Positions 2,398-25,580 of a stretch of DNA of 25,580 nt are shown in pieces. The stretch lies in IMG/VR virus record IMGVR_UViG_3300020188_000046, positions 1 through 25,580 of that record; one strand, written 5' to 3'. The stretch comes from a virus. The notes beneath the pieces were generated by a model, which had not been told where the DNA came from, ran no database searches, and was given only the letters and a program-made list of their open reading frames with translations. The translations under genes were made by a program, and so were the position numbers. Numbering within the stretch: the stretch's first letter is position 1; every line of letters begins with the position of its first letter.

Positions 2398-4158
2398 ATG
2401 GCAGAAGAGCAAAACAATAGTTCATTTTTTAATCGATTAACGAAACTCTTTTCTACTCAAGCAATCGTAAAGGTTGACAAGGATGGAAAGAGAAAAGTTG
2501 TTGATGTAGATGATAGACAGCAGGGTGGTACTAACTTAATGAATTTAAGAGATAGGTACACCAAACTACAAAGGTCTTTTTATGGAGACCAGATGGCAGC
2601 TCAATCGATGGCATACCATCAAGTTCGTAGAGAACTATTCAGAGATTATGATGCTATGGATAATGACCCAATTATCTCATCGGCATTAGATATATACGCA
2701 GATGAATGTACACTTAAAAACGAATTCGGTGAAGTTGTACAAATCAAATCAAAAAACGAAAAAGTAAAAGAAATATTAGAAAACCTTTTCTATGATATTT
2801 TGAATATAGAATTTAACCTATGGTCTTGGACAAGAAATATGGTTAAGTATGGTGATTTCTTTTTACTACAAGAAATTCAACCAGGTGTTGGTATTATAAA
2901 TGTAAGACCACTTCCAGTTTACGAAACTGAAAGATTAGAGAATACTGACCCAACTAATACAAATTATATTAAGTTCAAAGTAAATCACGACCCAAATGGT
3001 AAAGGTGAGTATGAAAACTATGAGATTGTCCACTTCAGATTATTATCAGATACAAACTTCCTTCCTTACGGAAAGGCAATGATTGAGAATGGTAGAAGAA
3101 TTTGGAAACAAGTTTCTTTGATGGAAGATGCAATGTTAATTCATAGAATTATGAGAGCACCGGATAAGAGAGTGTTCAAAATTGATATTGGTAACATTCC
3201 ACCACAAGAAGTTGATAACTACATGCAAAGAATTATCAACAAAATGAAGAAAACTCCATTTGTTGACAAAAAGACTGGTGATTATAACTTAAAGTATAAT
3301 GTTCAAAACCTAACTGAAGATTTCTTCTTACCTGTTAGGGGTGGTGATAGTGGTACTCAAATTGATTCATTGGGTGGTTTAGAATATACTGCTATCGATG
3401 ATATTGATTACTTAAAGAACAAACTATTTGCAGCTCTCAAAATTCCAAAAGCATATTTGGGATATGATGAGAATGTAAATGGTAAAGCAACTCTTGCTGC
3501 AGAAGATGTGAGATTTGCAAGAACAATTGAAAGAATCCAAAGAACTCTTATTTCAGAGTTAACTAAATTAGCAGTAACTCACTTAGCTGCTCAAGGTATT
3601 GAAGGTGCTGAAATGGTAGATTTTGAATTAGATTTAGTAAATCCATCTACAATTTATGAGCAAGAAAAAGTAAATCTTTGGAGTGAGAAAGTTAGATTAG
3701 TTTCAGATATTCAGGGATTAAATATGGTATCTAAAGATTGGGCATACAAAAATATCTTTAACTTTAGTGATGATGAAGTTGGTTTCCAAAAAACTCAACT
3801 TATCAATGATTTAAAAGATAGATTTAGATATCGTTCAATTGAAGATGAGGGTAATGACCCAGCAATGGAGACAGACCCAACTGATGTAGAGGATGAATTG
3901 GAAGAATTAAAAACTGAATTAAAGAACAAAGGTGGTAGACCAAAAGAGGGAAACACCTATGGTAAAGATAAACATCCTTATGGGAGAGACCCATTGGGTA
4001 AAAAAGAAAATCAAAAAGCGTTAAAGAAAACTGAATCAAAAGTTAGTAAAACTACGCATAAAGTTGCTAGAGAATATGTAAACGGAGTTTCAGCAAAACG
4101 AAGGTTGATGAGTGAAAACGGAGACTTTTTAGATGACGCAAATTTGATTGATGAATAA
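2398..4158 (+). CDS. 20: Portal vertex protein (gp20-like)
   Basis: Forms the dodecameric portal through which DNA enters and leaves the head; it nucleates prohead assembly and binds terminase, then the neck. T4-family portal signatures are clear: RAPDKRVFKIDIGN (253-266), the stem/clip region with LPVRGGDSGTQIDSLGG (311-327), AIDDIDYLKNKLF (332-344) and ALKIPKAYLG (346-355). At 586 residues it is longer than T4 gp20 (524). The extra length is an acidic stretch (about 483-508) followed by a Lys/Gly-rich tail (510-570) with GGRPKEGN and HPYGRDPLGKKEN. A good Shine-Dalgarno (TAAGGA, 2386-2391) lies 6 bases before the ATG. An 84-base gap with a hairpin follows it. Confidence 0.96.
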   Translation: MAEEQNNSSFFNRLTKLFSTQAIVKVDKDGKRKVVDVDDRQQGGTNLMNLRDRYTKLQRSFYGDQMAAQSMAYHQVRRELFRDYDAMDNDPIISSALDIYADECTLKNEFGEVVQIKSKNEKVKEILENLFYDILNIEFNLWSWTRNMVKYGDFFLLQEIQPGVGIINVRPLPVYETERLENTDPTNTNYIKFKVNHDPNGKGEYENYEIVHFRLLSDTNFLPYGKAMIENGRRIWKQVSLMEDAMLIHRIMRAPDKRVFKIDIGNIPPQEVDNYMQRIINKMKKTPFVDKKTGDYNLKYNVQNLTEDFFLPVRGGDSGTQIDSLGGLEYTAIDDIDYLKNKLFAALKIPKAYLGYDENVNGKATLAAEDVRFARTIERIQRTLISELTKLAVTHLAAQGIEGAEMVDFELDLVNPSTIYEQEKVNLWSEKVRLVSDIQGLNMVSKDWAYKNIFNFSDDEVGFQKTQLINDLKDRFRYRSIEDEGNDPAMETDPTDVEDELEELKTELKNKGGRPKEGNTYGKDKHPYGRDPLGKKENQKALKKTESKVSKTTHKVAREYVNGVSAKRRLMSENGDFLDDANLIDE

Positions 4159-8717: not shown

Positions 8718-9602
8718 ATGCCTGCACAATCTCAACAACAACAAAAACTATTCGGATTAGCATTAGCATTCAAAAGAGGTGAAGTTCCTGCTTCAGAGGT
8801 TTCGGATGAAATAAAAGATATTGCTGATAGAATGAGTGAAAAAGAGATTGAAGATTTCGCAGCAACAAAACATAAAGGATTACCAAAGATGAAAGAACAA
8901 CTTAGAAAAATCGTAAGAGAGATAATGAGAGAAAGAGCTATCTCTGAAATTGAACTATCTAAAGATGATATGGAAAAACTACACTCTGATGGTGAAGTTG
9001 AAGTTGATGGTGAGAAAGTAACCTTTGAAGAAGGTAAGAAAAGATTCAGACAGCAAGATGGTATTGGTAAAGCTAAATACACAATCTCTTACCACGATGG
9101 AAAACAAAAACACAAAGATGGTAGTGATTTCTTTGGAATCCAAATCTTCAAAAACAAAAAGGATTTAGAAACTTTCAGAAATGCACTTTTGAAAAAAGGA
9201 TATATTGAAGAATCAGTAAACGAAGGTATTGAACCACAAATCAAAAAGATTGCTTACTTTACAGGTACAAGACCTGAAGCAGTTGAGGATTTTGTTTCTA
9301 AGTACGCATTGAATTTTACTAAACTTCTTAAATATGTTGAAAAGGGCGGATTACCCCAAAGAATGGAATTTGTTGCCGCACTTGCTGGTAGACCAAATAA
9401 TCCTAAACAAAAGAAAATTATCAAAATGTTTAACGAATCAATTAACGAAGGATACTCTACTGAAGAGAAACGAATCGTAATGATGGCAGTTAGAAAACTT
9501 GCCAAATATAGAAATGTACCATTAGATTATGCAATTAATGATTTATTAGGTGCAGGAAAAGAACTCGAAAGAGATATCAAAAAAGGTAAAATTACAAAGT
9601 AA
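8718..9602 (+). CDS. Modular protein with DUF3008-like N-terminus
   Basis: A 294-residue protein with four modules. Residues 1-55 (MPAQSQQQQKLFGLALAFKR ... DFAATKHKGLPKM) match the short phage/bacterial family I know as DUF3008. Residues 56-163 are a basic helix and then a compact domain with ELSKDDMEKLHSDGEVEVDG and a beta-rich TISYHDGKQKHKDGSDFFGI. After linker ESVNE (165-169) comes a helical module with GTRPEAVEDFVSKY (183-196). After ESINE (240-244) comes a last helical module, YSTEEKRIVMMAVRKLAKYR. The linkers match those in the 353-aa protein. Either the modules were shuffled as units, or the linkers are sites for the prohead protease, releasing small peptides inside the head. No ribosome site is obvious. 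It is the last gene before the long leader. Function unknown. Confidence 0.75.
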   Translation: MPAQSQQQQKLFGLALAFKRGEVPASEVSDEIKDIADRMSEKEIEDFAATKHKGLPKMKEQLRKIVREIMRERAISEIELSKDDMEKLHSDGEVEVDGEKVTFEEGKKRFRQQDGIGKAKYTISYHDGKQKHKDGSDFFGIQIFKNKKDLETFRNALLKKGYIEESVNEGIEPQIKKIAYFTGTRPEAVEDFVSKYALNFTKLLKYVEKGGLPQRMEFVAALAGRPNNPKQKKIIKMFNESINEGYSTEEKRIVMMAVRKLAKYRNVPLDYAINDLLGAGKELERDIKKGKITK

Positions 9603-9817: not shown

Positions 9818-10978
9818 ATGGCAAATTCAAAATTGTTAAAAGAAGCAATTGCGGATGCTAAAGCTGTAAGAGAAACTGCAATCGCTAACGCTAAGATTGC
9901 ACTTGAGGAAGCATTTACTCCAAGATTACAATCAATCCTATCAAAGAAGCTACAAGCTGAAATGGAAGGTGAAGAGGAAGAAATCGAAGAGGAATTAGAT
10001 TCAAGTGATATTGGTAACGGTGATGAGGATTCTCCAGTTGAACCATCTGATGTTGCATCTGACGCACACACCGAACTTGGACCTGAATCTGAAGAAGAAA
10101 CTGCAGAGGTAGGAGACGAGTTGGAAGAAGGTGAAGGTTCTGTTGAGGACCCAACTAACGCTGATGACGCTACAATTTCGGAAGAAGAAGAATCTGAAAT
10201 CGAAGAAGAAGAATCTGAAGAAGAAATTTCTGAAGAGGAAGATGAAATCGAAGAAGAAGAATCTGAAGAAGAAATTGAAGAAGAAGAAGATGAGTTAGAT
10301 TTGGAGTCTATCATTAGAGAACTTGAAATGGGTATGGAAGATGAAGAAGAAATTTCTGAAGAGGAAATGGATTCTGAAGAAGAAGTATCTGAAGAAGAAC
10401 ATGAGGATGAAGTATCCGAAGAAGATGAAATCGAAATGGATTCTGAAGAAGAAGCTGAAGAAGCTGAAGCTGAAGATGAAGATGAAGATGAAGATGAGGA
10501 TGATGAAATCGACTTGGATGAAATTCTTAGAGAAATGGGATACGGCGAAGGTGAAGAAGAAATTGAAGAAGAAGAACACGAAGAAGAGGCTAATGAAGAG
10601 GTAGTTAGACTACAAACTGAATTAGAAGAAGCTCTTTCAACTGTTAAGACTCTACAATCTACCATCAACGAAGTAAACCTTCTTAACGCAAAATTATTAT
10701 ACGCTAATAGATTGTTCAGAGCTTATAACTTAAACAATGAGCAAAAATCTAAAGTTGTTGAAAACTTAGACAGAACATCATCTGTTAGAGAAGTAAAATT
10801 AGTTTACGCTACGTTAGCAGAATCAATGAATTTTACAGGAACTGAGAAGAGAACTAAGAAAGTTGTAGCTGAAGCTGCATCTAAACCAGTTGCTTCTACT
10901 GCACCTGCAAAAGAAATTATTTCTGAAAACACAAATGTATTAGCTGAAAGATTTAAACAATTAGCTAATATCAAATAA
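9818..10978 (+). CDS. 22: Prohead core scaffold protein (gp22-like)
   Basis: Main internal scaffold on which the capsid shell assembles; later degraded by gp21. It has 386 residues against 269 in T4. The N-terminus is a helix (MANSKLLKEAIADAKAVRET ... ALEEAFTPRLQSIL). The middle (about 50-265) is extremely acidic low complexity, mostly Glu, Ser, Asp and Ile. The C-terminus is a coiled coil and helical domain with LQSTINEVNLLNAKLLYANR and SSVREVKLVYATLAESM, the part conserved in gp22 proteins. Two similar short helices interrupt the acid stretch: ELDLESIIRELEMG (159-172) and EIDLDEILREMG (230-241). The extra length is therefore an expanded, internally duplicated acidic segment. It sits directly before the capsid gene, as in T4. 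Possible gp21 sites are numerous. Confidence 0.9.
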   Translation: MANSKLLKEAIADAKAVRETAIANAKIALEEAFTPRLQSILSKKLQAEMEGEEEEIEEELDSSDIGNGDEDSPVEPSDVASDAHTELGPESEEETAEVGDELEEGEGSVEDPTNADDATISEEEESEIEEEESEEEISEEEDEIEEEESEEEIEEEEDELDLESIIRELEMGMEDEEEISEEEMDSEEEVSEEEHEDEVSEEDEIEMDSEEEAEEAEAEDEDEDEDEDDEIDLDEILREMGYGEGEEEIEEEEHEEEANEEVVRLQTELEEALSTVKTLQSTINEVNLLNAKLLYANRLFRAYNLNNEQKSKVVENLDRTSSVREVKLVYATLAESMNFTGTEKRTKKVVAEAASKPVASTAPAKEIISENTNVLAERFKQLANIK

Positions 10979-11007: not shown

Positions 11008-12624
11008 ATGGCAAATTTTGATTTATCTAAACTAATGGAAGGCAAAAACCCTCAGTCAGTTATGTTGGCTGAAACTAGACAATTAAAGTCTAAGTGGGAA
11101 AATACAGGTCTTCTTGAAGGTTTAAATGAGAAAGAGCAAGGCGCAATGTCTGTTCTTTTAGAAAACCAAGCAAAACAATTGCTTGATGAAGCATCACAAA
11201 CTGGTGTTGCTAATAACTCTGAAGAGTGGAGCGGTGTAGCTTTACCTTTAGTAAGAAGAATCTTTGGTGAGATTGCTTCTAAAGAATTCGTTAGTGTACA
11301 ACCTATGAACTTACCTTCTGGACTTGTATTCTATCTTGATTTCAAATATGGTACTGCGCAAGGTGGTAACCCAGCATTCTCTGGAAAATCTCTTTTCGGT
11401 GGTGATGGTTCGGATGTAGGTTCAACTAATGTTGCTGAAAACGGTCTTTACGGAGATGGTAGATTCGGATACTCTGCAAATGATGTAACTGCTTCTATCG
11501 CTGTAGGTGATATCACATTCGCTTCAGCTTCTTGGGCAGAGGTAGGATTTGACGCTTCTTTATCACAATCAATTTCTGATGGTGAAATCGCTAAACTTAC
11601 TTTCGCTGCTCCTGCAACTGCTGATTTAGATGGTGCTAACTCTTTCAACATCTCTGATGATGAAATCGTAACTACTATCAACCAATTCAACGGTGCTGCT
11701 GGTTCTAACTTAGTAATGTTCGTATCTGCATCTGCTGGATATGGTACATCTGCTGCAGATTTCGCTATCTTAACTTACTCAGTAGTTCCTGCTGATTACT
11801 CAAGAGGTGATTTCGAAGATGGAATGAACACTGGTAAAGTTGCTGGTTCTGGTACTTTCGGTACTGATATCGATATCCCAGAAGTTGACTTAGAATTGAA
11901 ATCTGAAGCAATTGTTGCTAAGACTAGAAAGTTAAAGGCTGTGTGGACTCCTGAGTTGGCGCAAGACCTTAACGCTTACCACTCAATCGATGCTGAAGCT
12001 GAATTAACTTCTATGTTATCTGATTACATCTCATTAGAGATTGATTTAGAAATCTTAGATATGTTAAAGTCTAACGCATTGACTACTGAGTACTGGTCAG
12101 CTACAATCGGTGAGGAGTACAACTCTTCAACTGGTGTATGGTCTGCTGGAACTGCTGGTGTTGCATACCAAAAGAACACTTGGTTCCAAACTTTAGGTAC
12201 TAAATTAAACAAAGTATCTAATAAGATTCACCAATTAACATTAAGAGGTGGAGCTAACTTTGTAGTAGCATCTCCTGATGTATGTACTATCTTAGAATCA
12301 ATCCCTGGATTTACTGTTTCAGCTGATAAAGATGCAATGTCTTTCGCTGCTGGTGTAACTTCAGTAGGTGCGATTGCTAACAGATACACAGTTTACAAAA
12401 ACCCTTATATGACTTCTAACGAAATCTTATTAGGATTTAGAGGAAGCAACTTCCTAGAAACTGGTGCTGTTTACGCTCCGTATGTACCACTTATTATGAC
12501 TCCATTAGTGTATGACCCAACTAACTTCACTCCAAGAAGAGGTGTTATGACGAGATACGCTAAGAAGATGGTAAGACCTGAGTACTATGGTAAGATTTAT
12601 GTTAAAGATTTAGCATCTATCTAA
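11008..12624 (+). CDS. 23: Major capsid protein (gp23-like)
   Basis: Forms the hexamers of the icosahedral head (HK97 fold). At 538 residues it is close to T4 gp23 (521). Conserved stretches include LPLVRRIFGEIASKEFVSVQ (79-98), PMNLPSGLVFYLDFKYG and the C-terminal PRRGVMTRYAKKMVRPEYYG. The N-terminal 61 residues look like the propeptide removed by gp21: LLDE61 followed by A62 fits the (L/I)xE rule and lies near the T4 site E65/A66. Residues about 130-275 form a Gly/Ser/Ala-rich domain where T4 has its variable insertion domain. Shine-Dalgarno AAAGGAA (10994-11000) is strong. Compared with its neighbours the gene uses many AAC, TTC, GCT and TCT codons, as expected for the most highly made virion protein. 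It is followed by a strong terminator. Confidence 0.97.
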   Translation: MANFDLSKLMEGKNPQSVMLAETRQLKSKWENTGLLEGLNEKEQGAMSVLLENQAKQLLDEASQTGVANNSEEWSGVALPLVRRIFGEIASKEFVSVQPMNLPSGLVFYLDFKYGTAQGGNPAFSGKSLFGGDGSDVGSTNVAENGLYGDGRFGYSANDVTASIAVGDITFASASWAEVGFDASLSQSISDGEIAKLTFAAPATADLDGANSFNISDDEIVTTINQFNGAAGSNLVMFVSASAGYGTSAADFAILTYSVVPADYSRGDFEDGMNTGKVAGSGTFGTDIDIPEVDLELKSEAIVAKTRKLKAVWTPELAQDLNAYHSIDAEAELTSMLSDYISLEIDLEILDMLKSNALTTEYWSATIGEEYNSSTGVWSAGTAGVAYQKNTWFQTLGTKLNKVSNKIHQLTLRGGANFVVASPDVCTILESIPGFTVSADKDAMSFAAGVTSVGAIANRYTVYKNPYMTSNEILLGFRGSNFLETGAVYAPYVPLIMTPLVYDPTNFTPRRGVMTRYAKKMVRPEYYGKIYVKDLASI

Positions 12625-13904: not shown

Positions 13905-14360
13905 ATGCCAAGATTTGCATTAGATAGAGATATAAGATTCTTTGAATCAATTTCAAGAGAGTTGGTAGATGCTGTAATTGAAACTACGGTAGTTCTATTC
14001 AAACTTGCTATTGATGATATTTCAACAAACCTTTATGGTGAATCTCTAAATAAATCATATTATCAAGGTACAGAATGTACTGCAGTGATTGAAAGAGATG
14101 ATTCTTCTATTTCTTACGAAGGATTTGGACCGGATAGTGGACAAAATGTAGAGTTCAGATTCAATCGTATTAAGTTAAAAGATAAAGGGTTCTATCCAGA
14201 AATCGGTGATATTATCATGCACAATGATGCATATTTTGAAATCGATAATGTAAGAGAGGACCAACTAATTGGTGGACAAAGTGGAGAGAAATTCTCAATC
14301 ATTTGTTCAACATTTATGACAAGAAGAAGTACTATTCAAACTGAAATGAGAGTTATCTAA
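13905..14360 (+). CDS. Putative neck protein (gp14-like)
   Basis: A 151-residue protein, one base after the previous stop. FFESISRELVDAVIETTVVL (12-31) is typical of the short neck proteins of marine T4-like phages, followed by LYGESLNKSYYQG. The rest is a beta-barrel-like domain with FRFNRIKLKDKGFYPEIGDI and a glycine-rich QLIGGQSGEKF. It is shorter than T4 gp14 (256). It probably bridges the gp13-like ring and the tail terminator. Its stop TAATG overlaps the next start. The family assignment comes from memory of related phage proteins and gene order and should be confirmed by a profile search. Confidence 0.6.
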   Translation: MPRFALDRDIRFFESISRELVDAVIETTVVLFKLAIDDISTNLYGESLNKSYYQGTECTAVIERDDSSISYEGFGPDSGQNVEFRFNRIKLKDKGFYPEIGDIIMHNDAYFEIDNVREDQLIGGQSGEKFSIICSTFMTRRSTIQTEMRVI

Positions 14361-15448
14361 TGAATAAGAAAGAAACAAATAGAGCATTACAAAGAGGTAT
14401 CAAACCAGAATACACTAAAGGTGTAAAACTTTTAGATGTAGATACTACTATTGCAGAGTATATGGTGGATACTATCATTCCTGATGTAGAAGAACACAAT
14501 AGTAAAGTTAAAGTTCCTCTACTTTACGGAAATGCTGAAAGATGGAATAATGCTCGAGCAAAAGGATATTTGAGAGACCAAAGGGGTAAGATTCAAATTC
14601 CTTTAGTAATGTTCAAAAGAAATTCCATCGAAAGAGATACAAACTTAGCACAATTTAAGGATATAAACACCTTACCAGCTTACAAAAAATATTCTTCTCA
14701 AAATAGATACGAAAGATTTTCATTACAAACTGGAGCAAAAAAAGCATTTGAACAATATGAAGTTTCGGTTCCTGATTATGTAACGGTAACTTATGAGGTA
14801 ATGATTTGGACATCATTTACCGAACATATGAATAAGATTGTAGAAGCATTTCAATATGCTACTGATAGATATTGGGGTAAAGAAGATGGATTCAAATTTA
14901 GAACTCGTATTGATTCATTTGATAACCAACAAGAAGTGGGAGAAGGTTCAGAAAGAATCATTAGAACTTCTTTCACTATGGTAGTAAACGCTTATTTACT
15001 TCCTGAAACATATGATGAAAAACCAACTGTTAAAAAAACATTTACCCCTAAGAAAGTTGTATGGGGTGTTGAAACAGATTTAAGTGGATTAACATTTACT
15101 AATCCCAACATATATAATGAATATCAGAATGTTATAGATTTTGTAGCAATACGAAGTTCACAAAGAGCTGAATTAGTTAATGGTGGTGATGCCGTTACTG
15201 GTGATGGTGCTATTGTAAAAATAACAAATGTAAGAAAGCCGGTTTTACCAACTGAATTAATTGGTTCGTTTGATACATTAAATTGGTTTAGAGTTTACAT
15301 AAATACTGAATTCAAACCGGCATCTACTTACACTTATTCTTTTAATGGAAGTACAAATGAAATATCATTTACTTTTAATGAAACTTTAGGATTTCAATTA
15401 GATGCAAATGATGAAGTGGATATTGTAGGTAAATTTGAACAACTATGA
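14360..15448 (+). CDS. 15: Tail sheath stabiliser / tail completion protein (gp15-like)
   Basis: A hexameric cap on the tail that stabilises the sheath and binds the neck. The core (50-215) follows T4 gp15: VPLLYGNAERW (52-62; T4 has a VPITYAS-type segment), IQIPLVMFKR (78-87), VTVTYEVMIWTSFTEHMNKI (141-160; T4 has a similar helix after IYELSIFTRYEDDM), and RIIRTSFTMVVNAYLLPE (199-216). At 362 residues it exceeds T4 gp15 (272). The excess is a C-terminal beta domain (about 305-362) with FRVYINTEFKPASTYTYSFN and DEVDIVGKF, which resembles the next two genes' products. The stop overlaps the next start by ATGA, implying coupled translation. A contractile tail is therefore expected even though sheath and tube genes are not in the window. 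Confidence 0.8.
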   Translation: MNKKETNRALQRGIKPEYTKGVKLLDVDTTIAEYMVDTIIPDVEEHNSKVKVPLLYGNAERWNNARAKGYLRDQRGKIQIPLVMFKRNSIERDTNLAQFKDINTLPAYKKYSSQNRYERFSLQTGAKKAFEQYEVSVPDYVTVTYEVMIWTSFTEHMNKIVEAFQYATDRYWGKEDGFKFRTRIDSFDNQQEVGEGSERIIRTSFTMVVNAYLLPETYDEKPTVKKTFTPKKVVWGVETDLSGLTFTNPNIYNEYQNVIDFVAIRSSQRAELVNGGDAVTGDGAIVKITNVRKPVLPTELIGSFDTLNWFRVYINTEFKPASTYTYSFNGSTNEISFTFNETLGFQLDANDEVDIVGKFEQL

Positions 15449-16204: not shown

Positions 16205-19200
16205 ATGGCTAGATTAATACCACAAAAGCAGATTGAAGAAGTAAATATTTTTAGGGATAGTATATCCGTAGGTAATTCTGTCTTTATATCTGGTTCTCTT
16301 TTAGTTTCTCAATCAATCGATATTGGTAATGATTTAACCACACCACAAAGAATAACTGGTTCGGTTCAAATTACTGGTTCAATTAATATTGATGGTGATT
16401 TAACATTTGCTAGAGCAGAAAGTAGATTAGATGCAACCGCATCTTTTTCTGATGTATCGGTTGATACTCAAAGATTTGGTGGTATTCCAGTAGCAGAATT
16501 CGGAGGTAGTGATGCAACAGTTTATGTATCTGCTACTAGAGGTGATGATTCCAATGATGGACGTTCACCACAATTCCCAGTTAGAACAATTAAGAGAGCA
16601 GCTCAGATAGTAACTCCTGGTGATGATGGTAGATATGGTTTACCAACTGGTTCCAACTTTACTGGTTTTAGAATTGATGTACAAGCTGGTACTTACTTAG
16701 AAGATAATCCAGTTGAACTTCCAAGAAACACAACTGTTTGGGGAGCTGGTTTAAGGGTTACCAAAGTTGTTGCTAAGAATGAAAACGAAGATTTATTTTG
16801 GGTAAATAGTGGTAACTATTTAGCAGAGATGACTTTTGCTGGATTAAGAGTATTTCCATCAGTTGATGATTCCCAGAAAGGTTTTGCAATATCATTTGCT
16901 CCAAACGCATTTATTACAACATCTCCTTATGTTCAGAACTGTTCAATGATTTCCAATCAGGAAAACTCATTCTTAGAAGCATATGAGGATATTCCTGCTG
17001 GTGGTGGTGGATTGAATGTAGATGGTAATAGAATTCATCCTGATTCACCTCTTGCTTCAATGGTACTTGATGCATATACACAGGTTGCACCAAACGGTGT
17101 TGGTTGTCAAGTTGTAGGTAGAGGATTTATTCAGTTAGTATCGTTCTTCACAAACTTCTCTGCATATTCAGTAAAAGTAATTGATGGTGGGCAAGCAGTA
17201 TTACTTAACTCCAACACTTCATTTGGTGATTTTGGTATGTATGCGTCTGGTTCTCGTTTCATCACTGGTAGTGGTGGTAATACTGAAGCATTTTTAAATG
17301 TACAAGATAATTACTCAATTATTGTTGATACAATTGAAAGGGGATTGGGTGAAATTCCTGATTTAGTTACAAATACTGAAGATGGTATTAAAGTAACTAA
17401 TGAATTACAAAAATTCAATACAGGTGCACAAGCAAGTGATAAAGATGCAAAAACAGTTGTATCTGATTATAGATTAATATCTAATTTGATTGAAAGAGGA
17501 GTTGAAAATAAAATTCCTATTTTAGCCGTATCATCGGATAGAGGATATAATTCGGGTTCAGTATGGAATGTTAGTGGTGATAATCAAATAACTTCATCAA
17601 CTACGGCATCTGAAGATGATTTAAGTACAATCAATACTAATTATGATATTGTTTTAGATATAATTGAAAGAGGTAATGCAGCTACATCATCATACATTTA
17701 TGTAGATAATGTTAGTTCTTCAATTAAAATAAGTGATGTCGAGCAATACAAATCATCACCGGTATCTGATATTACGGAAGATACAATTGGTGAACGATTT
17801 GATACTATTATTTCCATCATAGAAAATGGTTTAGATTTTATTCCAGAAATAAAATTAAATACATCTCAATCGTTTAAGGTAACCGATACAACTCAATATA
17901 TTACTGATTTATCTTCATCATTAAATGTTAGAGAAGCAGTAAGTTCTTCGTTATCTATTGTATATAATATTTTGGATAATGGAACAGGTTCAGCACCAGC
18001 AATTATTCAGAGTAGTTCAAACGAAAATCCAACGATTGATTATCAAAATGCTTACGCATTACTAATTGAAAACATTCCATTTATTCAAGAAGAAACGATT
18101 GCTTATTTGAGTTCGTCTTGGAGTGAGTTTGAATACAACCAAACTACTTGTAAGAGAGATGTTGGTTATATCGTAAGTGGTGCTGCGCATGATTTATTAT
18201 ATGGTGGTAATGAAGAATCGGTGAGAAATGGTAACTTCTATTACCTCTATCCATCGGATGCAACAACAACTCAAAAAGACCCAACCCTAACGGCAATCAA
18301 ATATGTTGCTGGTATGGTTGATAATATATTATCAGATACAACTTTTGTAGAAACAACTGCTGAGGCTGATAATGCATACAGCTTATTGTTTGAAAATAAA
18401 CGATTTATACAATCCGAATCTATTGCATATGTAAGTTCTTCTTGGAGTACATTTGAGTACAATGAAGCTAAGTGTGTAAGAGATTTGGGATACATCATAG
18501 ATGCGGTAGCAACTGATATCAAATATGGTGGTAATGAGAGAAGTGTAATCGCTGGTAATTTCTATTACAAATACCCATCCCAGGCAACTGTAAATAATAG
18601 TACTGTTGGTGGACAATTAAATCAAACAATTGATGGTATTAAGTACGCTAAGAGGATAGCTCAGAAGTTAGCTAAAAACGAAACATTCGTAACTCAATCG
18701 GCATCTACACTTACTATCGCTGATACACTATTACAAAATCGTTCTCTAATTCAAGACGAAACGATTACATATATTAATACAACATATCCAAACTTCTCAT
18801 ATAACGAAGCAAAATGTAGAAGAGATACTGGATATATTTTGGATGGTGTGATTACCGATTTAAGATATGGTGGGGTGGAACGCTCTCAATTATCGGGTCT
18901 ATACTACTACCTATATCCATCAATCGCAAACACAACTCAATTAGAAGAAACCTTAGAGGGTATCAGATATTCTAAAGGATTTGCATTGGAAGTTGCTCAA
19001 TCTAATTTGATTGAAATACCAACCGCTAAACGAAATATTGAAAAACGAATTAAGGTTGGTGATGTGCAATACATAACATCATCGATTAGTGGTACTGAGT
19101 TTGAATCTAAGTATATTAGTGGTTCAATTGGAATCGTTGAAGATATCATTAGATTTGGTAATGATTCGGTATTAGCTTCAATTGCTGAAAATACTGGAAG

Positions 19201-22200
19201 TTTTAATTGGAGTATATCTTCACCAATAAATGTAAGTAGTGTACTTCCAATAACATCATCGGTAACTGAATCCGTTAACATACAAAATGTAAGTGATGGG
19301 TTTGATATTGTTACCTCAATCATAGCTGGTGGTGAATCTGTTATACCTCAACCAACATCTTCTTGGGAAGGTACAATTAAAGTAACTGATACTCCACAAT
19401 ACATTAGTAGTAGTTTATCATCAACATCTACCGAAGCAACTTTGGTTTCTCAATCAATTGCTATTGTGGCAAATATAGTACAAAATGGTGTTGATTCATT
19501 ACCACCATTAACAGCTAGTATAGATGGGTTAATCAAAGTAACAAATCAACTTCAGAATACGGATTATAGTGGTTCTTTAACTGAGGCAACTAAAGTTAGT
19601 TCATCATTTGCTACTATAACAAATATTGTAGAAAATGGTGTAGGTGTGATTCCTACAATTGTATCAAATACAAACGAAAATATTAAGTTCTTTAACGATA
19701 GTGTTCAATACATATCTTCTTCGTTTAGTGGAAGTTTAGAGGATGTATCATTCATTTCATCTTCTATTTCTTATGTAACATCAATTATCGCAAATGGAAC
19801 TGGCTCATATACTGCTAGTGAATATCCATCACAACCACTTTCATCATCAAATGCAATTGCGGCATACCAAATCCTAAGAAACAATATTGATTTCATCAAA
19901 GATGAAACAATTGCATATTTGAGTTCTTCTTGGAGTACCGCATCTTATGATGAAAGTAAATGTAGAAGAGATGTTGGTTTAATTATCTCAGGCGCCGCAG
20001 AAGATTTAATTTGGGGAACTGTATCATCTTCAATAGTAAATGGTAAGTTCTACTATGAATATCCTTCACAAGCACAAGGTGCACAATTAAATCAAACATT
20101 AGATGGTGTATTTTTCGCAAGTGAAGTAGCACAAAAACTTATTCAGAATATTGAGTTCGTAACCGCATCTGTTGAAAGAAGGGGAGCTTGGAACGCAATT
20201 ACTGAAAATGAAGATTTCATTAAAGAAGAAATGATTCAATATCTATCTTCTTCTTGGAGTACTTTTGATTATAACGAAACAACTTGTAGAAGAGATGCTG
20301 GATATATTTTAGATGCAGTTAAAACTGATATCTACTATGGTGGTAATGAGAGAAGTGCTATTGCTGGTAACTTCTATTACCTATATCCATCGGCAGCAAT
20401 TTTAAGTGGTAGTGCATCTCCAACACCTACAACACAATTAGTACCAACATTAGATGGATTGAGATATGCTGGTAGAATTACTGAAGCAGTTGTAACTGGT
20501 AGTTCATTCTCATTCCCATCTCAAGCAAAATTAGATGCTAAGAATGTTCTTCTTAATAACAAACAATTTGTACAAGATGAAACAATAGCATACCTATCTT
20601 CTTCTTGGAGTGAGTTCTCATACAACCAAACAACTTGTAAGAGAGATATAGGATTTATTATAGATGCTGCTGTAACTGATGTAGTTTATGGTGGTAATGA
20701 GAGAAGTAGAATCGCATCTAATTTCTACTATCGTTATCCATCTGCAGCAATTGTAGGTGGTGTTCCTTCAACAACTCAACAAAAAGACCCAACGGTTGAT
20801 GGTATCAAATATGTGGGTGGTATTTCTGAGAAGATTGTATTGGGTGAAACATTCACATCAGCGGATAGCACTAAGATAACAATTAAAAACTCAATCATTG
20901 ATAACAAATCAAATGTACAACAACAAACAATTGATTACATCAATGATACTTACCCAAATCTAAACTATAACAACGATAAGTGTTTTAGAGATGTTGGGTT
21001 CATCATAGATGCAGTTGTAACTGATTTAGTATATGGTGGAAATGGTAGAAGTGTTCAAGCTGGAGCATTCTATTATAGATTCCCATCACAAGCTACATTC
21101 TCACAATTAAGTGAAACGGTAGATGGTATCAACTTCGCTAGAGATTTAATTAAATTAGATTTAAGAGGAGCTAATTCAGTAGAGAATTCATTCGATACTG
21201 TAATTAAAATTATTGAAAGTGGTAGTTCTATTGTAACTGAAGAAACAATCGGAACAGGTTCAGCTCCAGTGCCTGAATCTCAAATAGGAGACCCAATTTC
21301 TACTATTGGAATTCCTAAAGATTCATATGGTGATGGTTTAGTAAAAACTGTAATTACTACTTCCATACCAACTTTTGAATTGACTGAAAACACAGATTCG
21401 GGTATTAAGTTTGGTAGTGATACACAAATTACAGGTTCTATAACTTCATCAGTTAGTGAATCATTAAAAGTATCATCTTCATTCTCAGATATTATTGATA
21501 TCATTAAATATGGTACTTCTGGTAGTTTAAGTTTGAGTGGTTCTTTTGATACCTCAACTTACTACGAAGTTGTTACTCCAGAAACTGGTGATTATTATAT
21601 TATCAATAGAGCTCAATTGGATGAGTTTGATGGTGTAAGAGCAGGTGGATATTTTAATACCGAAGAAAATACAGGTTCATTCTCAGATGGTATTAAAGAC
21701 CCAACTTTAACATTGAAAAGGGGTGAAATGTACACCTTCTCAGTAAATGCTCTAAAATACGATTTAAATCCATTCTACATTAAAACTGCTAGAAAGCCAA
21801 ATAAAGAAGCTCTTTATAATGAAGGTGTAACTAATAATGGTGTAAACTTTGGAACTTTAACATTTATCGTTCCACTAGAAGCACCGGATAGATTATATTA
21901 TGTAAATGGTAATAATGTATCTGCTAGTGGTATTATCAATGTAGTTGATAATTTACCAATTTCGGATACTCAAAGATATATTGAAGTTCCATCTAAAGGA
22001 TTTGTTGAAATAACTACTAACAATGTTGATAATATTAAGATATCAAATATATCTCAATATTCATCTTCATTCAGTGCTTCGGTTGATGAATCACATGAAA
22101 TTAGTTCATCATTTGCAACTACAATAGAAATATTGAAAAATGGTGTAGATGATTTACCAACTATTGTTGAAAATACATCTGGTTCAATAAAAGTAACAAA

Positions 22201-25200
22201 TACATCACAAATTACATCTTCAATAACACCATCTGAATATGAACTAAATAATGTAAGTTCATCATATGCAATTGTTATTGATGTTTTACAAAATGGAACA
22301 AGTTCTTTACCAACCGAAATATCAAATACATCAGCTAGTATAAAAGTAACTGATGTACCTCAATATATTTCATCTTCGGTAAGTGGTACATTAGAAAATG
22401 TTAATTTTATATCTTCATCGGTATCAATAGTTTATAACATAGTACAATTAGGTTCATCTGGTTCGTACACCGCTAGTTTATATGATACTGGTAGTGGAGT
22501 ATCTACCGATGAATCAACGATAGCTGCATATCAAATTATTAGAAATAATATTCCATTTATTCAATCAGAAAGTTTAGCATACCTATCTTCGTCTTGGAGT
22601 ACTGCTTCTTATGATGAAGTAAAATGTGGTAGAGATATTGGCTTAATAATATCTGGTGCGGCTGAAGATTTAATTTGGGGTACTGTATCATCATCAGTTG
22701 TAAATGGTAGGTTCTATTTAGAATATCCATCTCAAGCTGAAACATCTCAATTAAATCAAACATTGGATGGTATTGAATATGCTAGTAAACTTACTCAAAA
22801 ATTAATTCAAAATATTCAATTTGTAACTGCTTCAAATGAAGCATCTGCATCACATCAATTATTGTTAGATAATAAGGTATTAATTCAAAATGAAACAATT
22901 GAATACATATCATCATCTTGGAGTGATTTTGTTTACTCAGATATATTATGTAGAAGAGATATTGGACATATTGTAGATGCTGCAGCAACTGATATTCTTT
23001 ATGGTGGTAATGAACGTTCTGTACAAGCGGCATCTTTCTATTACAGTAATCCATCCGCAGCAACTGGTTCACAATTGAATCAAACTGTTGATGCGATTAA
23101 TTACGCTAGAAGAATATCTAATAAAATACTTCAAAATCAAGTTTTAGAATTACCTGAATTACAAACTTTAGGAGTAGCAGAATTAATCTCTGAAAATAAA
23201 AGTTTAATTCAAGAAGAAACTATTCAATTCCTTTCTTCTTCTTGGAGTACATTTGAATACAATGAAGCTAAATGTAGAAGAGATACTGGATACATTATAG
23301 ATGCGGTTGTAACCGACTTCGTATATGGTGGTAATGAAAGAGCAGTAAATGCTGGAGAATTCTATTACCTATACCCATCAGATGCAACTGGTTCACAATT
23401 AACACAAACTGTTGATGGAATCACTTACGCACAACGATTGACAAATAAATTAATTAATAATATAACTTTAGTAACTTCATCATTAGAAAGAAGAGCAACT
23501 AAAGATTTATTAATGGATAACAAAGGATTGATTCAAAATGAAGTTATCCACTTTATAAGTTCTTCTTGGAGTACATTTGAATATAATGAATCTAAGTGTA
23601 AGAGAGATGTTGGGTATATCATAGATGCTATCGCTACTGATATTGTTTATGGTGGTAATGAAAGAAGTGTAGTGGCTGGTGAGTTCTATTATAGATATCC
23701 ATCTGAGGCAACAACTACTCAATTAGACCAAACAATTACAGGTGTAAAACATGCAGCTGGATTATCAGAAAAAATTATTCAAAACACACTATTAGTAAAT
23801 CCCGATAGTAACACATTAGAAGCTTACAATAGAATTAGAAATAATAAATTATTTATACAATCCGAAGTTATTGAGTTTGTTGATAACTTATATCCATACT
23901 TTACTTACAATAGAGTTAAGTGTAAGAGAGATGTTGGATTTATTTTAGATGCGGTAGCAACTGATTTATTATGGGGAGGCAATGAAAGAAGTATTATTGC
24001 TGGTGATTACTATTACAGATATCCATCACAGGCAACCACTTTCCAATTAAGAGAAACTATTGAGGGTATTAGATACGCTAAAGCTCTTACTAAGGATGTG
24101 ATTCTAAACAAAGAGTTTGAAAGACCAAGAATTATCCTTAATAGTGAAAATCATATTAAGGTTGATGGTGTTCCACAATATAGTGGTTCAATGGCTATTA
24201 GTGGTAGTAATTTAACTGAAATTAGTTCTTCATTTGAAATTATTAACAATGTAATTTTAGGTGGATTAAATAACTTACCAACAGAACATAAGGGTATTGA
24301 ATCATTAACTAAAGTAACAAACGCAATTCAAACAACTAACTCAGCTACTCAATCCGTATCTGATATTAGTTCATCATTCGCAATTGTGATTGATGTGATT
24401 CAAAATGGAGTTGGAAATATTCCAACGATTGTATCAAACACAAACAACAATATCAAAGTTGGAAATATTGAACAATACATTTCTTCATCTGCTAGTGGTA
24501 GTTTAGAAAATGTAAACTTTATTTCATCTTCTATTGATATTGTAACCGATATTATAACAAATGGTGTTGGTGGATATGTACCTACAAATTACACAACTTC
24601 ATCTACCGATGAATCAACAATTGCGGCTTACCAAATCCTAAGAAATAACATTGATTTCATTCAGGAAGAAACAATAGCTTATTTATCATCTTCTTGGAGT
24701 GGATTTGTATATGATGAATCAAAATGTAGAAGAGATGTTGGATTGATTGTAAGTGGGGCAGCTGAAGATTTAATTTGGAATACTGATTCATCTTCAATTG
24801 TAAATGGTAAGTTCTATTTAGAATACCCATCTCAGGCAACAAGCTCACAATTAGACCAAACATTAGATGGTATTTTCTACGCTAGTAATTTAGCTCAGAA
24901 ATTGATTCAGAATGTAACATTCTCATCGGCAGATTCTACTATTGTTGATTCTTATAACTCAATTGTAAATGAAAAAGCAACTATCCAATCTAAGGTAATT
25001 GCATACTTATCATCCTCATTCCCAACTCACCAATACAATGAAAGTAAGTGTAGTAGAGATGTGGGTTACATCATTGATGGTGTAGCAACTGACTTACTAT
25101 ATGGTGGTAATGAAAGAAGCGTTAAATCAGGAAATTACTATTACAAATATCCATCACAAGCAACTGGATATCAATTAGAAGAAACTGTTGCTGGTATTGA

Positions 25201-25580
25201 GTACGCACAAAGATTAACTGAGGTTGCATCTCAAAACAAAGGAACACAAATTGGAATTGTATCGGCAAGTATTGATATGATTAACGATATTATTAGATTA
25301 GGTTCTGATGATATTCCATTTACTATCGCTAAGCATTTCCAAACTTCTGAGTTAGATACTCCACAACAATTAACAACGGGTTCTTATACTCAAATAGCTG
25401 GACCTACATTAGATTCAGAATACAACAATGGTTCAATTATATCTTTAACTGGTGATGGTAGTGATTTCTTCAAAAAAGAAGTTACAGTCAATGGTGTAAG
25501 AATTGTTGTAGCCGGTGATGTTGGTGGACAAACTGCTGTACCTGATGCATTTACTGAGAAAGTTGCTCGTATGTTTGAAT
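16205..25580 (+). CDS. Giant modular fibre-like structural protein, 3' partial
   Basis: One frame open from ATG 16205 to the right edge: at least 3125 residues (over 330 kDa), no stop seen. Residues 1-100 hold Gly/Ser-rich short beta repeats (ITGSVQITGSINIDGDL). Residues about 106-390 look like a right-handed beta-helix of pectin-lyase type: VYVSATRGDDSNDGRSP, FPVRTIKRAAQIV, then FRIDVQAGTYLEDNPVELP and NTTVWGAGLR. Then come alternating ~50-residue IKVTN-type repeats and 14 modules with invariant CxRDxG (Cys at 649, 757, 871, 1253, 1361, 1478, 1593, 2141, 2249, 2357, 2465, 2573, 2841, 2949). A cupredoxin-like domain sits at 1833-1915. Similar giant proteins, with beta-helix and CxRD-type repeats, occur from memory in cyanophages as uncharacterised virion proteins. 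It is probably a long fibre or whisker involved in host contact, but no receptor-binding tip is visible here. Confidence 0.88.
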   Translation, partial: MARLIPQKQIEEVNIFRDSISVGNSVFISGSLLVSQSIDIGNDLTTPQRITGSVQITGSINIDGDLTFARAESRLDATASFSDVSVDTQRFGGIPVAEFGGSDATVYVSATRGDDSNDGRSPQFPVRTIKRAAQIVTPGDDGRYGLPTGSNFTGFRIDVQAGTYLEDNPVELPRNTTVWGAGLRVTKVVAKNENEDLFWVNSGNYLAEMTFAGLRVFPSVDDSQKGFAISFAPNAFITTSPYVQNCSMISNQENSFLEAYEDIPAGGGGLNVDGNRIHPDSPLASMVLDAYTQVAPNGVGCQVVGRGFIQLVSFFTNFSAYSVKVIDGGQAVLLNSNTSFGDFGMYASGSRFITGSGGNTEAFLNVQDNYSIIVDTIERGLGEIPDLVTNTEDGIKVTNELQKFNTGAQASDKDAKTVVSDYRLISNLIERGVENKIPILAVSSDRGYNSGSVWNVSGDNQITSSTTASEDDLSTINTNYDIVLDIIERGNAATSSYIYVDNVSSSIKISDVEQYKSSPVSDITEDTIGERFDTIISIIENGLDFIPEIKLNTSQSFKVTDTTQYITDLSSSLNVREAVSSSLSIVYNILDNGTGSAPAIIQSSSNENPTIDYQNAYALLIENIPFIQEETIAYLSSSWSEFEYNQTTCKRDVGYIVSGAAHDLLYGGNEESVRNGNFYYLYPSDATTTQKDPTLTAIKYVAGMVDNILSDTTFVETTAEADNAYSLLFENKRFIQSESIAYVSSSWSTFEYNEAKCVRDLGYIIDAVATDIKYGGNERSVIAGNFYYKYPSQATVNNSTVGGQLNQTIDGIKYAKRIAQKLAKNETFVTQSASTLTIADTLLQNRSLIQDETITYINTTYPNFSYNEAKCRRDTGYILDGVITDLRYGGVERSQLSGLYYYLYPSIANTTQLEETLEGIRYSKGFALEVAQSNLIEIPTAKRNIEKRIKVGDVQYITSSISGTEFESKYISGSIGIVEDIIRFGNDSVLASIAENTGSFNWSISSPINVSSVLPITSSVTESVNIQNVSDGFDIVTSIIAGGESVIPQPTSSWEGTIKVTDTPQYISSSLSSTSTEATLVSQSIAIVANIVQNGVDSLPPLTASIDGLIKVTNQLQNTDYSGSLTEATKVSSSFATITNIVENGVGVIPTIVSNTNENIKFFNDSVQYISSSFSGSLEDVSFISSSISYVTSIIANGTGSYTASEYPSQPLSSSNAIAAYQILRNNIDFIKDETIAYLSSSWSTASYDESKCRRDVGLIISGAAEDLIWGTVSSSIVNGKFYYEYPSQAQGAQLNQTLDGVFFASEVAQKLIQNIEFVTASVERRGAWNAITENEDFIKEEMIQYLSSSWSTFDYNETTCRRDAGYILDAVKTDIYYGGNERSAIAGNFYYLYPSAAILSGSASPTPTTQLVPTLDGLRYAGRITEAVVTGSSFSFPSQAKLDAKNVLLNNKQFVQDETIAYLSSSWSEFSYNQTTCKRDIGFIIDAAVTDVVYGGNERSRIASNFYYRYPSAAIVGGVPSTTQQKDPTVDGIKYVGGISEKIVLGETFTSADSTKITIKNSIIDNKSNVQQQTIDYINDTYPNLNYNNDKCFRDVGFIIDAVVTDLVYGGNGRSVQAGAFYYRFPSQATFSQLSETVDGINFARDLIKLDLRGANSVENSFDTVIKIIESGSSIVTEETIGTGSAPVPESQIGDPISTIGIPKDSYGDGLVKTVITTSIPTFELTENTDSGIKFGSDTQITGSITSSVSESLKVSSSFSDIIDIIKYGTSGSLSLSGSFDTSTYYEVVTPETGDYYIINRAQLDEFDGVRAGGYFNTEENTGSFSDGIKDPTLTLKRGEMYTFSVNALKYDLNPFYIKTARKPNKEALYNEGVTNNGVNFGTLTFIVPLEAPDRLYYVNGNNVSASGIINVVDNLPISDTQRYIEVPSKGFVEITTNNVDNIKISNISQYSSSFSASVDESHEISSSFATTIEILKNGVDDLPTIVENTSGSIKVTNTSQITSSITPSEYELNNVSSSYAIVIDVLQNGTSSLPTEISNTSASIKVTDVPQYISSSVSGTLENVNFISSSVSIVYNIVQLGSSGSYTASLYDTGSGVSTDESTIAAYQIIRNNIPFIQSESLAYLSSSWSTASYDEVKCGRDIGLIISGAAEDLIWGTVSSSVVNGRFYLEYPSQAETSQLNQTLDGIEYASKLTQKLIQNIQFVTASNEASASHQLLLDNKVLIQNETIEYISSSWSDFVYSDILCRRDIGHIVDAAATDILYGGNERSVQAASFYYSNPSAATGSQLNQTVDAINYARRISNKILQNQVLELPELQTLGVAELISENKSLIQEETIQFLSSSWSTFEYNEAKCRRDTGYIIDAVVTDFVYGGNERAVNAGEFYYLYPSDATGSQLTQTVDGITYAQRLTNKLINNITLVTSSLERRATKDLLMDNKGLIQNEVIHFISSSWSTFEYNESKCKRDVGYIIDAIATDIVYGGNERSVVAGEFYYRYPSEATTTQLDQTITGVKHAAGLSEKIIQNTLLVNPDSNTLEAYNRIRNNKLFIQSEVIEFVDNLYPYFTYNRVKCKRDVGFILDAVATDLLWGGNERSIIAGDYYYRYPSQATTFQLRETIEGIRYAKALTKDVILNKEFERPRIILNSENHIKVDGVPQYSGSMAISGSNLTEISSSFEIINNVILGGLNNLPTEHKGIESLTKVTNAIQTTNSATQSVSDISSSFAIVIDVIQNGVGNIPTIVSNTNNNIKVGNIEQYISSSASGSLENVNFISSSIDIVTDIITNGVGGYVPTNYTTSSTDESTIAAYQILRNNIDFIQEETIAYLSSSWSGFVYDESKCRRDVGLIVSGAAEDLIWNTDSSSIVNGKFYLEYPSQATSSQLDQTLDGIFYASNLAQKLIQNVTFSSADSTIVDSYNSIVNEKATIQSKVIAYLSSSFPTHQYNESKCSRDVGYIIDGVATDLLYGGNERSVKSGNYYYKYPSQATGYQLEETVAGIEYAQRLTEVASQNKGTQIGIVSASIDMINDIIRLGSDDIPFTIAKHFQTSELDTPQQLTTGSYTQIAGPTLDSEYNNGSIISLTGDGSDFFKKEVTVNGVRIVVAGDVGGQTAVPDAFTEKVARMFE
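17300..18050 (+). repeat. IKVTN-type short repeats, first cluster
   Basis: Within the giant gene, after the beta-helix. Units of about 50-60 residues follow the pattern (Y/F)xIIxxIIExG, xIP, IKVT(N/D)xxQ. Examples are IIVDTIERGLGEIPDLVTNT, GIKVTNELQKF, FDTIISIIENGLDFIPEI and FKVTDTTQYI. Copies are divergent, so this is the most eroded cluster of the family. Confidence 0.65.
18060..18995 (+). repeat. CxRD module array 1 (modules 1-3)
   Basis: Three tandem modules with Cys codons at 18149, 18473 and 18815 (spacing 324 and 342 bp). Each runs: FIQ(E/S)E(T/S)I, SSSWSxF(E)YN, CxRDxGYI, TD.xYGGNERS, FYYxYPSxA, QLxxTxxGIxYA. Module 3 replaces SSSWS by NTTYPNF and GGNERS by GGVERS. Confidence 0.88.
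19000..19850 (+). repeat. IKVTN-type short repeats, second cluster
   Basis: Five to six repeats of about 50 residues: IKVGDVQYITSS, IKVTDTPQYISSS, LIKVTNQLQ, IKFFNDSVQYISSS. Each is followed by SSSFATITNIVENGVGVIP-type helices. The last (SGSLEDVSFISSS) leads directly into module 4 and recurs before modules 8 and 13. Confidence 0.75.
19850..21170 (+). repeat. CxRD module array 2 (modules 4-7, B-A-A-A)
   Basis: Cys codons at 19961, 20285, 20636 and 20981 (spacing 324, 351, 345 bp). Module 4 is the B subtype: GLIISGAAEDLIWGTVSSS and VNGKFYYEYPSQA replace the GYIxDA and YGGNERS features. Modules 5-7 are the common A subtype. Module 7 has INDTYPNLNYNN and GGNGRS. Confidence 0.88.
21400..22500 (+). 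repeat. IKVTN-type repeats, third cluster, with an inserted cupredoxin-like domain
   Basis: The cluster begins with IKFGSDTQITGS and ends with IKISNISQYSSS, IKVTNTSQITSS and IKVTDVPQYISSS. A non-repeat domain (about 21560-21960) lies between them, with PTLTLKRGEMYTFSVNALKY, NNGVNFGTLTFIVPLEAPDR and LYYVNGNNVSASGIINV. Confidence 0.72.
22515..24110 (+). repeat. CxRD module array 3 (modules 8-12, B-A-A-A-A)
   Basis: Cys codons at 22625, 22949, 23273, 23597 and 23921, all exactly 324 bp (108 codons) apart. Module 8 is the B subtype (LIISGAAEDLIWGTVSSS); 9-12 are A. This is the longest and most regular array, suggesting recent tandem growth. Confidence 0.9.
24140..24610 (+). repeat. IKVTN-type short repeats, fourth cluster
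   Basis: Three copies: HIKVDGVPQYSGS, LTKVTNAIQTTNS and IKVGNIEQYISSS, with SSSFAIVIDVIQNGVGNIP between. The last copy (SGSLENVNFISSS) precedes the third B-type module, as in the other blocks. Confidence 0.75.
24610..25225 (+). repeat. CxRD module array 4 (modules 13-14, B-A)
   Basis: Cys codons at 24725 and 25049 (324 bp apart). Module 13 is the B subtype (GLIVSGAAEDLIWNTDSSS); module 14 is the A subtype with SSSFPTHQYN. A different, non-repeat sequence follows to the right edge (ISLTGDGSDFFKKEVTVNG). Confidence 0.87.

Follow-up and report, generated by a model that had tools for sequence, protein, structure and literature searches.

Phycobiliproteins attach their bilins at a CXRD motif, in which the cysteine bonds the bilin, with R and D forming hydrogen bonds to it; in BBAGs with CXRD, bilin loading proceeds without lyases (PMC10151467). 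The purpose of the phage heme oxygenase (HO) and PcyX was left open, and BBAGs were named as possible partners (PMC11480375). The benefit of phage bilin genes has been called unclear, and the adsorption of several cyanomyoviruses depends on light (PMC2984593). For phage fibres, S-CREM2 gp85, a long tail fibre of 4,971 aa, was detected in virions by mass spectrometry (PMC10665884). S-PM2d088 and d218, two large ORFs of S-PM2, gained mutations while the phage coexisted with Synechococcus (PMC9910659). Among open-licence papers, we found none joining phycobiliproteins to phage tail fibres. Jia and co-workers reportedly described light-dependent adsorption of S-PM2 in 2010. We know of no basis for this behavior in S-PM2-type phages.

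The window analyzed here is a virus fragment of 25,580 bases. As the earlier note described, one uninterrupted frame runs from the ATG at 16205 to the window edge (Table 1). Exact matches to the start of this gene are found in two IMG/VR contigs, the 126-kb L003 and the 252-kb L004. L004 is identical to the window at 9,375 of 9,376 ORF bases and over 10 kb upstream, and it supplies the stop codon that the earlier note asked for, completing a gene of 4,828 aa with 24 copies of the R1 module followed by a conserved C-terminal domain. Since this independent contig is nearly identical, the frame is no assembly accident, and the possibility that a corrected assembly would split the gene through a frameshift is rejected. 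In some 20 further contigs, the frames span 2,772-5,931 aa and begin and end alike. In one relative (L060:7133-8206), the N-terminal domain and the module-bearing part lie in two overlapping frames, which reflects either a frameshift or an assembly error.

The giant gene sits among tail genes. The gene order upstream is terminase, portal, protease, capsid, Ad2 and gp15-like. Downstream, identical contigs carry genes for a 287-aa protein, a 4,590-aa collagen-like fibre, small proteins and a 3,866-aa fibre, and then the start of a gp18-like sheath gene, a name given from its sequence. The two downstream fibre genes (L102:4220 onward; L107) have collagen-like GTSGTSG repeats, and the three fibre genes sum to about 13,300 aa. 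The 287-aa protein (L102:3341-4204) has one degenerate R1-like domain without the C, R and D residues. Glu-rich short tandem repeats at 10181-10503 of the window, in the frame preceding the capsid gene, probably belong to a scaffold. The capsid is closest to those of Flavobacterium and Microcystis phages. A cyanobacterial host found no support from psbA, which was absent from the 10 contigs searched.

Table 1. Features of the window around and within the giant fibre gene.
Feature	Position	Strand
T4-type major capsid protein, neighbour	11008..12624	+
gp15-like tail sheath stabiliser, neighbour	14360..15448	+
Giant fibre gene, first 3,125 codons (full: 4,828 aa, 24 R1 modules)	16205..25580	+
N-terminal domain, residues 1-347, beta-helix-like, common to short module-free homologues	16205..17245	+
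R2 run, 5 repeats of ~50 aa	17246..18013	+
R1 array, 3 bilin-binding-globin-like modules (Cys 649, 757, 871)	18050..19039	+
R2 run	19031..19825	+
R1 array, 4 modules (Cys 1253, 1361, 1478, 1593)	19862..21205	+
R2 run	21152..21541	+
Conserved insert A, phrog_677 match, without copper-ligand residues	21542..22012	+
R2 run	22013..22483	+
R1 array, 5 modules (Cys 2141 to 2573); three (22520-23515) modelled	22526..24145	+
R2 run	24134..24595	+
R1 array, 2 modules (Cys 2841, 2949)	24626..25273	+
Partial R2 interrupted by cassette C	25214..25333	+
Exchangeable cassette C, start (full: residues ~3044-3372)	25334..25580	+

The whole protein and its N-terminal, C-terminal and repeat regions match PHROG tail-fibre families (phrog_17885, phrog_5342 and phrog_4527; E 6e-126 to 8e-22), and R1 relatives in S-PM2, Syn1 and other phages are annotated as tail fibre. 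The idea of a giant modular virion protein therefore holds as to size, modularity and, from these matches, a tail-fibre nature. Its virion location is a prediction, which we consider very probable. The earlier statement that its function is undefined in any T4-like phage was too strong, because PHROGs classes relatives as tail fibre. The giant R1 relative S-PM2d088 mutated during coexistence with its host. The other mutated S-PM2 ORF, d218, was equated with T4-GC734 through its length of 3,779 aa. S-CREM2 gp85 was rejected as a virion-proven homologue, having no match to R1 or to the N- or C-terminal domain. In the S-PM2 record, tRNA features are drawn within the giant fibre CDS (NC_006820 168556-173383), where ARAGORN finds none; these are likely an annotation error.

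The domain architecture follows the outline first proposed from the window. The two repeat families are confirmed as R1, an all-alpha module of about 108 aa, and R2, a repeat of about 50 aa. For the N-terminus, a beta-helix-like fold is supported by its profile, which matches GH136 lacto-N-biosidase beta-helix chains (E 1.6e-5 to 4.5e-3, residues 103-172 only), and by the PHROG matches. Complete homologues have in common an N-terminal domain of 347-396 aa and a C-terminal domain of 92-95 aa (GRTFSxSLFSLVTPFSLAL; 93 aa in this gene). Their sizes range from short core proteins of about 460 aa, free of modules, up to 5,931 aa. The short relatives, such as L075 (461 aa in the matched frame) and S-SRM01 gp329 (619 aa), are made of the N- and C-terminal domains alone. 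Between these end domains, the giants have R1 arrays (12-24 modules), R2 runs, exactly one insert A, and either cassette B (412 aa, in 0-6 copies) or cassette C (329 aa). The cassettes are located mostly inside R2 runs. Every full-length homologue has as many R2 as R1 repeats, or one more or fewer, despite their separate blocks.

Insert A (residues 1780-1936) was earlier described as cupredoxin-like. It is a real and conserved insert, present as a single copy in every full-length homologue, but the cupredoxin identity did not stand. There was no match to Pfam or to a cupredoxin in the PDB, the ligand positions are substituted in this copy, and a sister copy has no PDB match. Plastocyanin-type ligands are present in the sister copies of giant2 and absent from the insert A of the window.

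Among this gene, L007 and L029, cassette C shows 98.8-99.4% protein identity and nearly as much in DNA, whereas its flanks are far more diverged. This comparison of sequences shows that fibre parts have been exchanged laterally in recent time. The cassette (L004:19130-20116) is a promiscuous domain, about 300 aa long, with an invariant E..EH..H..H motif. It occurs in frame in many unrelated phage structural proteins at 73-83% identity, including 85 records of Synechococcus-type phages, and in L221 it is inserted within a subtilisin-like protease. It is also found in proteins of bacterial MAGs, some with lipoprotein-like starts; in marine actinobacterial MAGs it forms small secreted or lipoprotein-like proteins. 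Searches of cassette C against Pfam, PHROG and the PDB gave no match, and its model (pLDDT 67.7) gave no fold match.

We then consider the nature of the R1 module, which the earlier note described without recognizing its CXRD phycobiliprotein/BBAG motif. An AlphaFold model of three modules from the window, computed with 101 family rows, is all-alpha with five helices per module (pLDDT 89.5, pTM 0.83). In a Foldseek search of the PDB with this triple-module model, all 11 matches with a probability above 0.2, among the 50 matches listed, are phycobiliproteins (best 0.98), at E values of about 1 and modest TM-scores. Against viral predictions, good matches were only to cyanophage or uncultured-phage proteins. 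An R1 profile of 103 non-redundant modules and remote copies was aligned by hhalign with a profile of eight phycobiliproteins from cyanobacterial plasmids. The whole module was aligned with CxRD on CxRD (probability 88-90, E 1.6e-6 to 3.1e-6). We tentatively equate the R1 helices with the phycobiliprotein helices B-E-F-G, based on the profile alignment and the general phycobiliprotein fold.

The alignment score of 40 was attained in none of 250 column shuffles (at most 23.5) and in none of 150 shuffles of eight-column blocks (at most 32.8), the latter keeping most of the motif together. Reversed profiles gave nothing. With CxRDxG masked, the score fell to 16 against a shuffle mean of 11.8, a weak signal near background. 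The CxRD motif therefore supplies a large share of the evidence but not the whole of it. R1 could also be an unrelated all-alpha repeat, in which generic helices and a chance CxRD produce the resemblance and CxRDxG marks another kind of binding site. The dependence of most of the profile signal on the CxRD block and the weak Foldseek E values are in keeping with such a repeat, but the whole-module alignment beats the largely motif-preserving block shuffles, and the linkage with bilin genes described below also speaks against it.

Pfam adds evidence on both sides. Over 12 phage records, all eight PF00502 matches fall on R1 modules and nowhere else, mostly below the cut-off, and the 3,779-aa fibre frame of S-PM2 exceeds the gathering cut-off; this restriction to R1 is unexpected for an unrelated repeat. 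Spurious families turn up too, as such a repeat would predict. Pfam scans of the giant protein gave spurious hits only, and a lax whole-Pfam scan of R1 triples is uninformative because unrelated families match as often. A PDB sequence search with the whole protein and an R1 profile search found nothing. A phycobiliprotein HMM run over 3,490 ORFs retrieved the true phycobiliproteins and then, within the best 45 rows, only R1 ORFs. We consider the unrelated repeat quite improbable. R1 is most likely a homologous phycobiliprotein/BBAG-type bilin-binding-globin domain, as judged from profiles and the predicted model; this assignment is a new result of the present work.

The motif itself is strongly retained. 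CxRDxG occurs 14 times in the window with C, R and D kept in every copy, as first noted, and accounts for 14 of the 16 cysteines there. The complete gene has 26 cysteines, and the 24 located in modules comprise 22 strict CxRDxG and two CxRD variants, so that CxRD is present in 24 of 24 modules. Among 877 R1 modules, the triad is intact in 833 (about 95%), entirely missing in 40 and mixed in four. The modules without it have lost C, R and D as a set while the fold residues stay. Because most of these 40 belong to the family of the 287-aa downstream protein, the losses represent few evolutionary events. The earlier proposal that the three residues signal a conserved fold or a binding site, not filler, is supported by this pattern, and the motif matches the CXRD bilin attachment of phycobiliproteins and BBAGs.

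R1 may instead descend from bilin-binding globins and now serve as a mere helical spacer, with C, R and D kept for packing, no chromophore bound, and host recognition left to the inserted cassettes. The rod-like tandem arrays within a fibre suit a spacer, as does the finding that variation and exchange concentrate in cassettes A, B and C. A spacer explains less readily why the triad is so widely kept, and why it is lost as a set where the fold residues persist. The pigment genes also bear on it in both directions. No CpeS lyase was found in any contig searched, and CpeT was found in two of 16, the contig of this gene not being one of them; its lack of a lyase fits a spacer. On the other hand, genes for bilin synthesis or cpeT are present in these phages, and in cyanophages they adjoin the fibre gene. 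Overall, we regard the spacer as somewhat unlikely.

On the contig of this gene, a heme oxygenase frame (243389-243745, 3.9e-13) precedes one for a ferredoxin-dependent bilin reductase (243982-244533, 2.8e-23). This enzyme matches the PcyA type at 2e-26, yet stays under the equivalog cut-off. The pair (G002:243389-244533, L276) is flanked by thyA-like and groEL-like frames, and it is also found in G016, G022, G024 and G025. In the cyanophages S-PM2, Syn1, S-RSM4, S-CAM1, S-RIM44, ACG-2014j and Sf-CH3, cpeT precedes the giant R1 fibre gene, with 0-3 protein genes between the two. In Sf-CH3, pcyA ends 38 bp before the fibre gene. The 60 R1 records listed share 53 entries with the 60 cpeT records listed, the records being mutually related. 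Six of the remaining seven are additional entries for phages that do have cpeT in their listed twins; the exception, DSL-LC03, has R1 without cpeT nearby.

Together with the R1 modules, which keep the pigment-attachment site, the pigment genes of this aquatic phage suggest a colored, perhaps light-responsive fibre. Alternatively, cpeT, pcyA and HO may serve the host antenna only, as auxiliary metabolic genes, and their proximity to R1 fibres would come from a conserved hot-spot of late genes and tRNAs and not from function. Published work sees phage cpeT, pebS and pcyA in this way (PMC2984593, PMC10452541). The antenna-only role gains from the observation that, in two cpeT lineages (P-HM1, MED4-213 and S-SCSM2R), cpeT lies upstream of R1-less fibres, contrary to the prediction of R1 in any fibre next to cpeT. 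It also gains from the distance between the fibre gene and the HO and reductase genes on the contig of this gene. It is harder to reconcile with the nearly complete overlap between the records with R1 and those with cpeT and with pcyA abutting the R1 gene in Sf-CH3. Moreover, as the searched contigs lack psbA, there would be no obvious host antenna for the bilins of this phage if its host is not a cyanobacterium. We see the antenna-only role as a fair contender that falls somewhat short of probable. It concerns the pigment genes alone and is compatible with R1 being a spacer.

In our preferred reading, the gene would encode a giant tail fibre or adhesin of a large T4-like phage. Its core would be the beta-helix-like N-terminal domain and the 93-aa C-terminal domain, and rods of tandem R1, R2 linkers and exchangeable inserts within the R2 runs would lie between them. 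R1 would be a shortened phycobiliprotein/BBAG-type helical domain that has retained the CXRD bilin-attachment triad. The HO and bilin reductase of the phage may produce its own linear tetrapyrrole, with which at least some R1 modules may be covalently loaded. The resulting pigmented fibre could tune, gate or photoprotect adsorption. Taken together, the fibre, the bilin-binding-globin module and its likely loading make an evenly balanced proposition. Attachment of the chromophore to R1, taken separately, is plausible but not quite probable, and a light-dependent role in adsorption is speculative and rather unlikely.

We proposed a potentially chromophorylated fibre because of the mutations in the large R1 proteins of S-PM2, the light-dependent adsorption of cyanomyoviruses and the mention of BBAGs as possible partners of HO and PcyX. 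Dozens of CXRD phycobiliprotein-like modules in one phage-encoded protein form a concrete candidate bilin acceptor. Such an acceptor bears on two questions, namely why aquatic phages carry HO, PcyA/PcyX/PebS and CpeT, and how adsorption comes to depend on light. Tentatively, the tail fibres may be pigmented, these modules being loaded with bilins that phage HO and reductase make or that phage CpeT attaches. The virion itself would then absorb light, which might explain both the light-dependent adsorption of S-PM2-type phages and the presence of bilin genes in phages.

Compared with known systems, S-CREM2 gp85 resembles the present protein in its giant size and is a precedent for giant fibres in virions. 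The members of phrog_17885, phrog_5342 and phrog_4527 are like it in the N- and C-terminal domains and the repeat region, but they are named from annotation only, and their module was not recognized as bilin-binding-globin-like. S-PM2p091 (S-PM2d088, 3,338 aa) and T4-GC734 share R1 modules with CxRD, and S-PM2p091 also has similar N- and C-terminal domains. Unlike the present protein, they have about 5-7 modules each and a known Synechococcus host, and cpeT adjoins T4-GC734. Phycobiliproteins and BBAGs (PF00502; PMC10151467) resemble R1 in the predicted helical fold, align with it from end to end as profiles and have the CXRD attachment motif in common with it. R1 differs from them in its length of about 108 aa, its tandem arrangement in a phage fibre and the absence of the N-terminal helices and the last helix.
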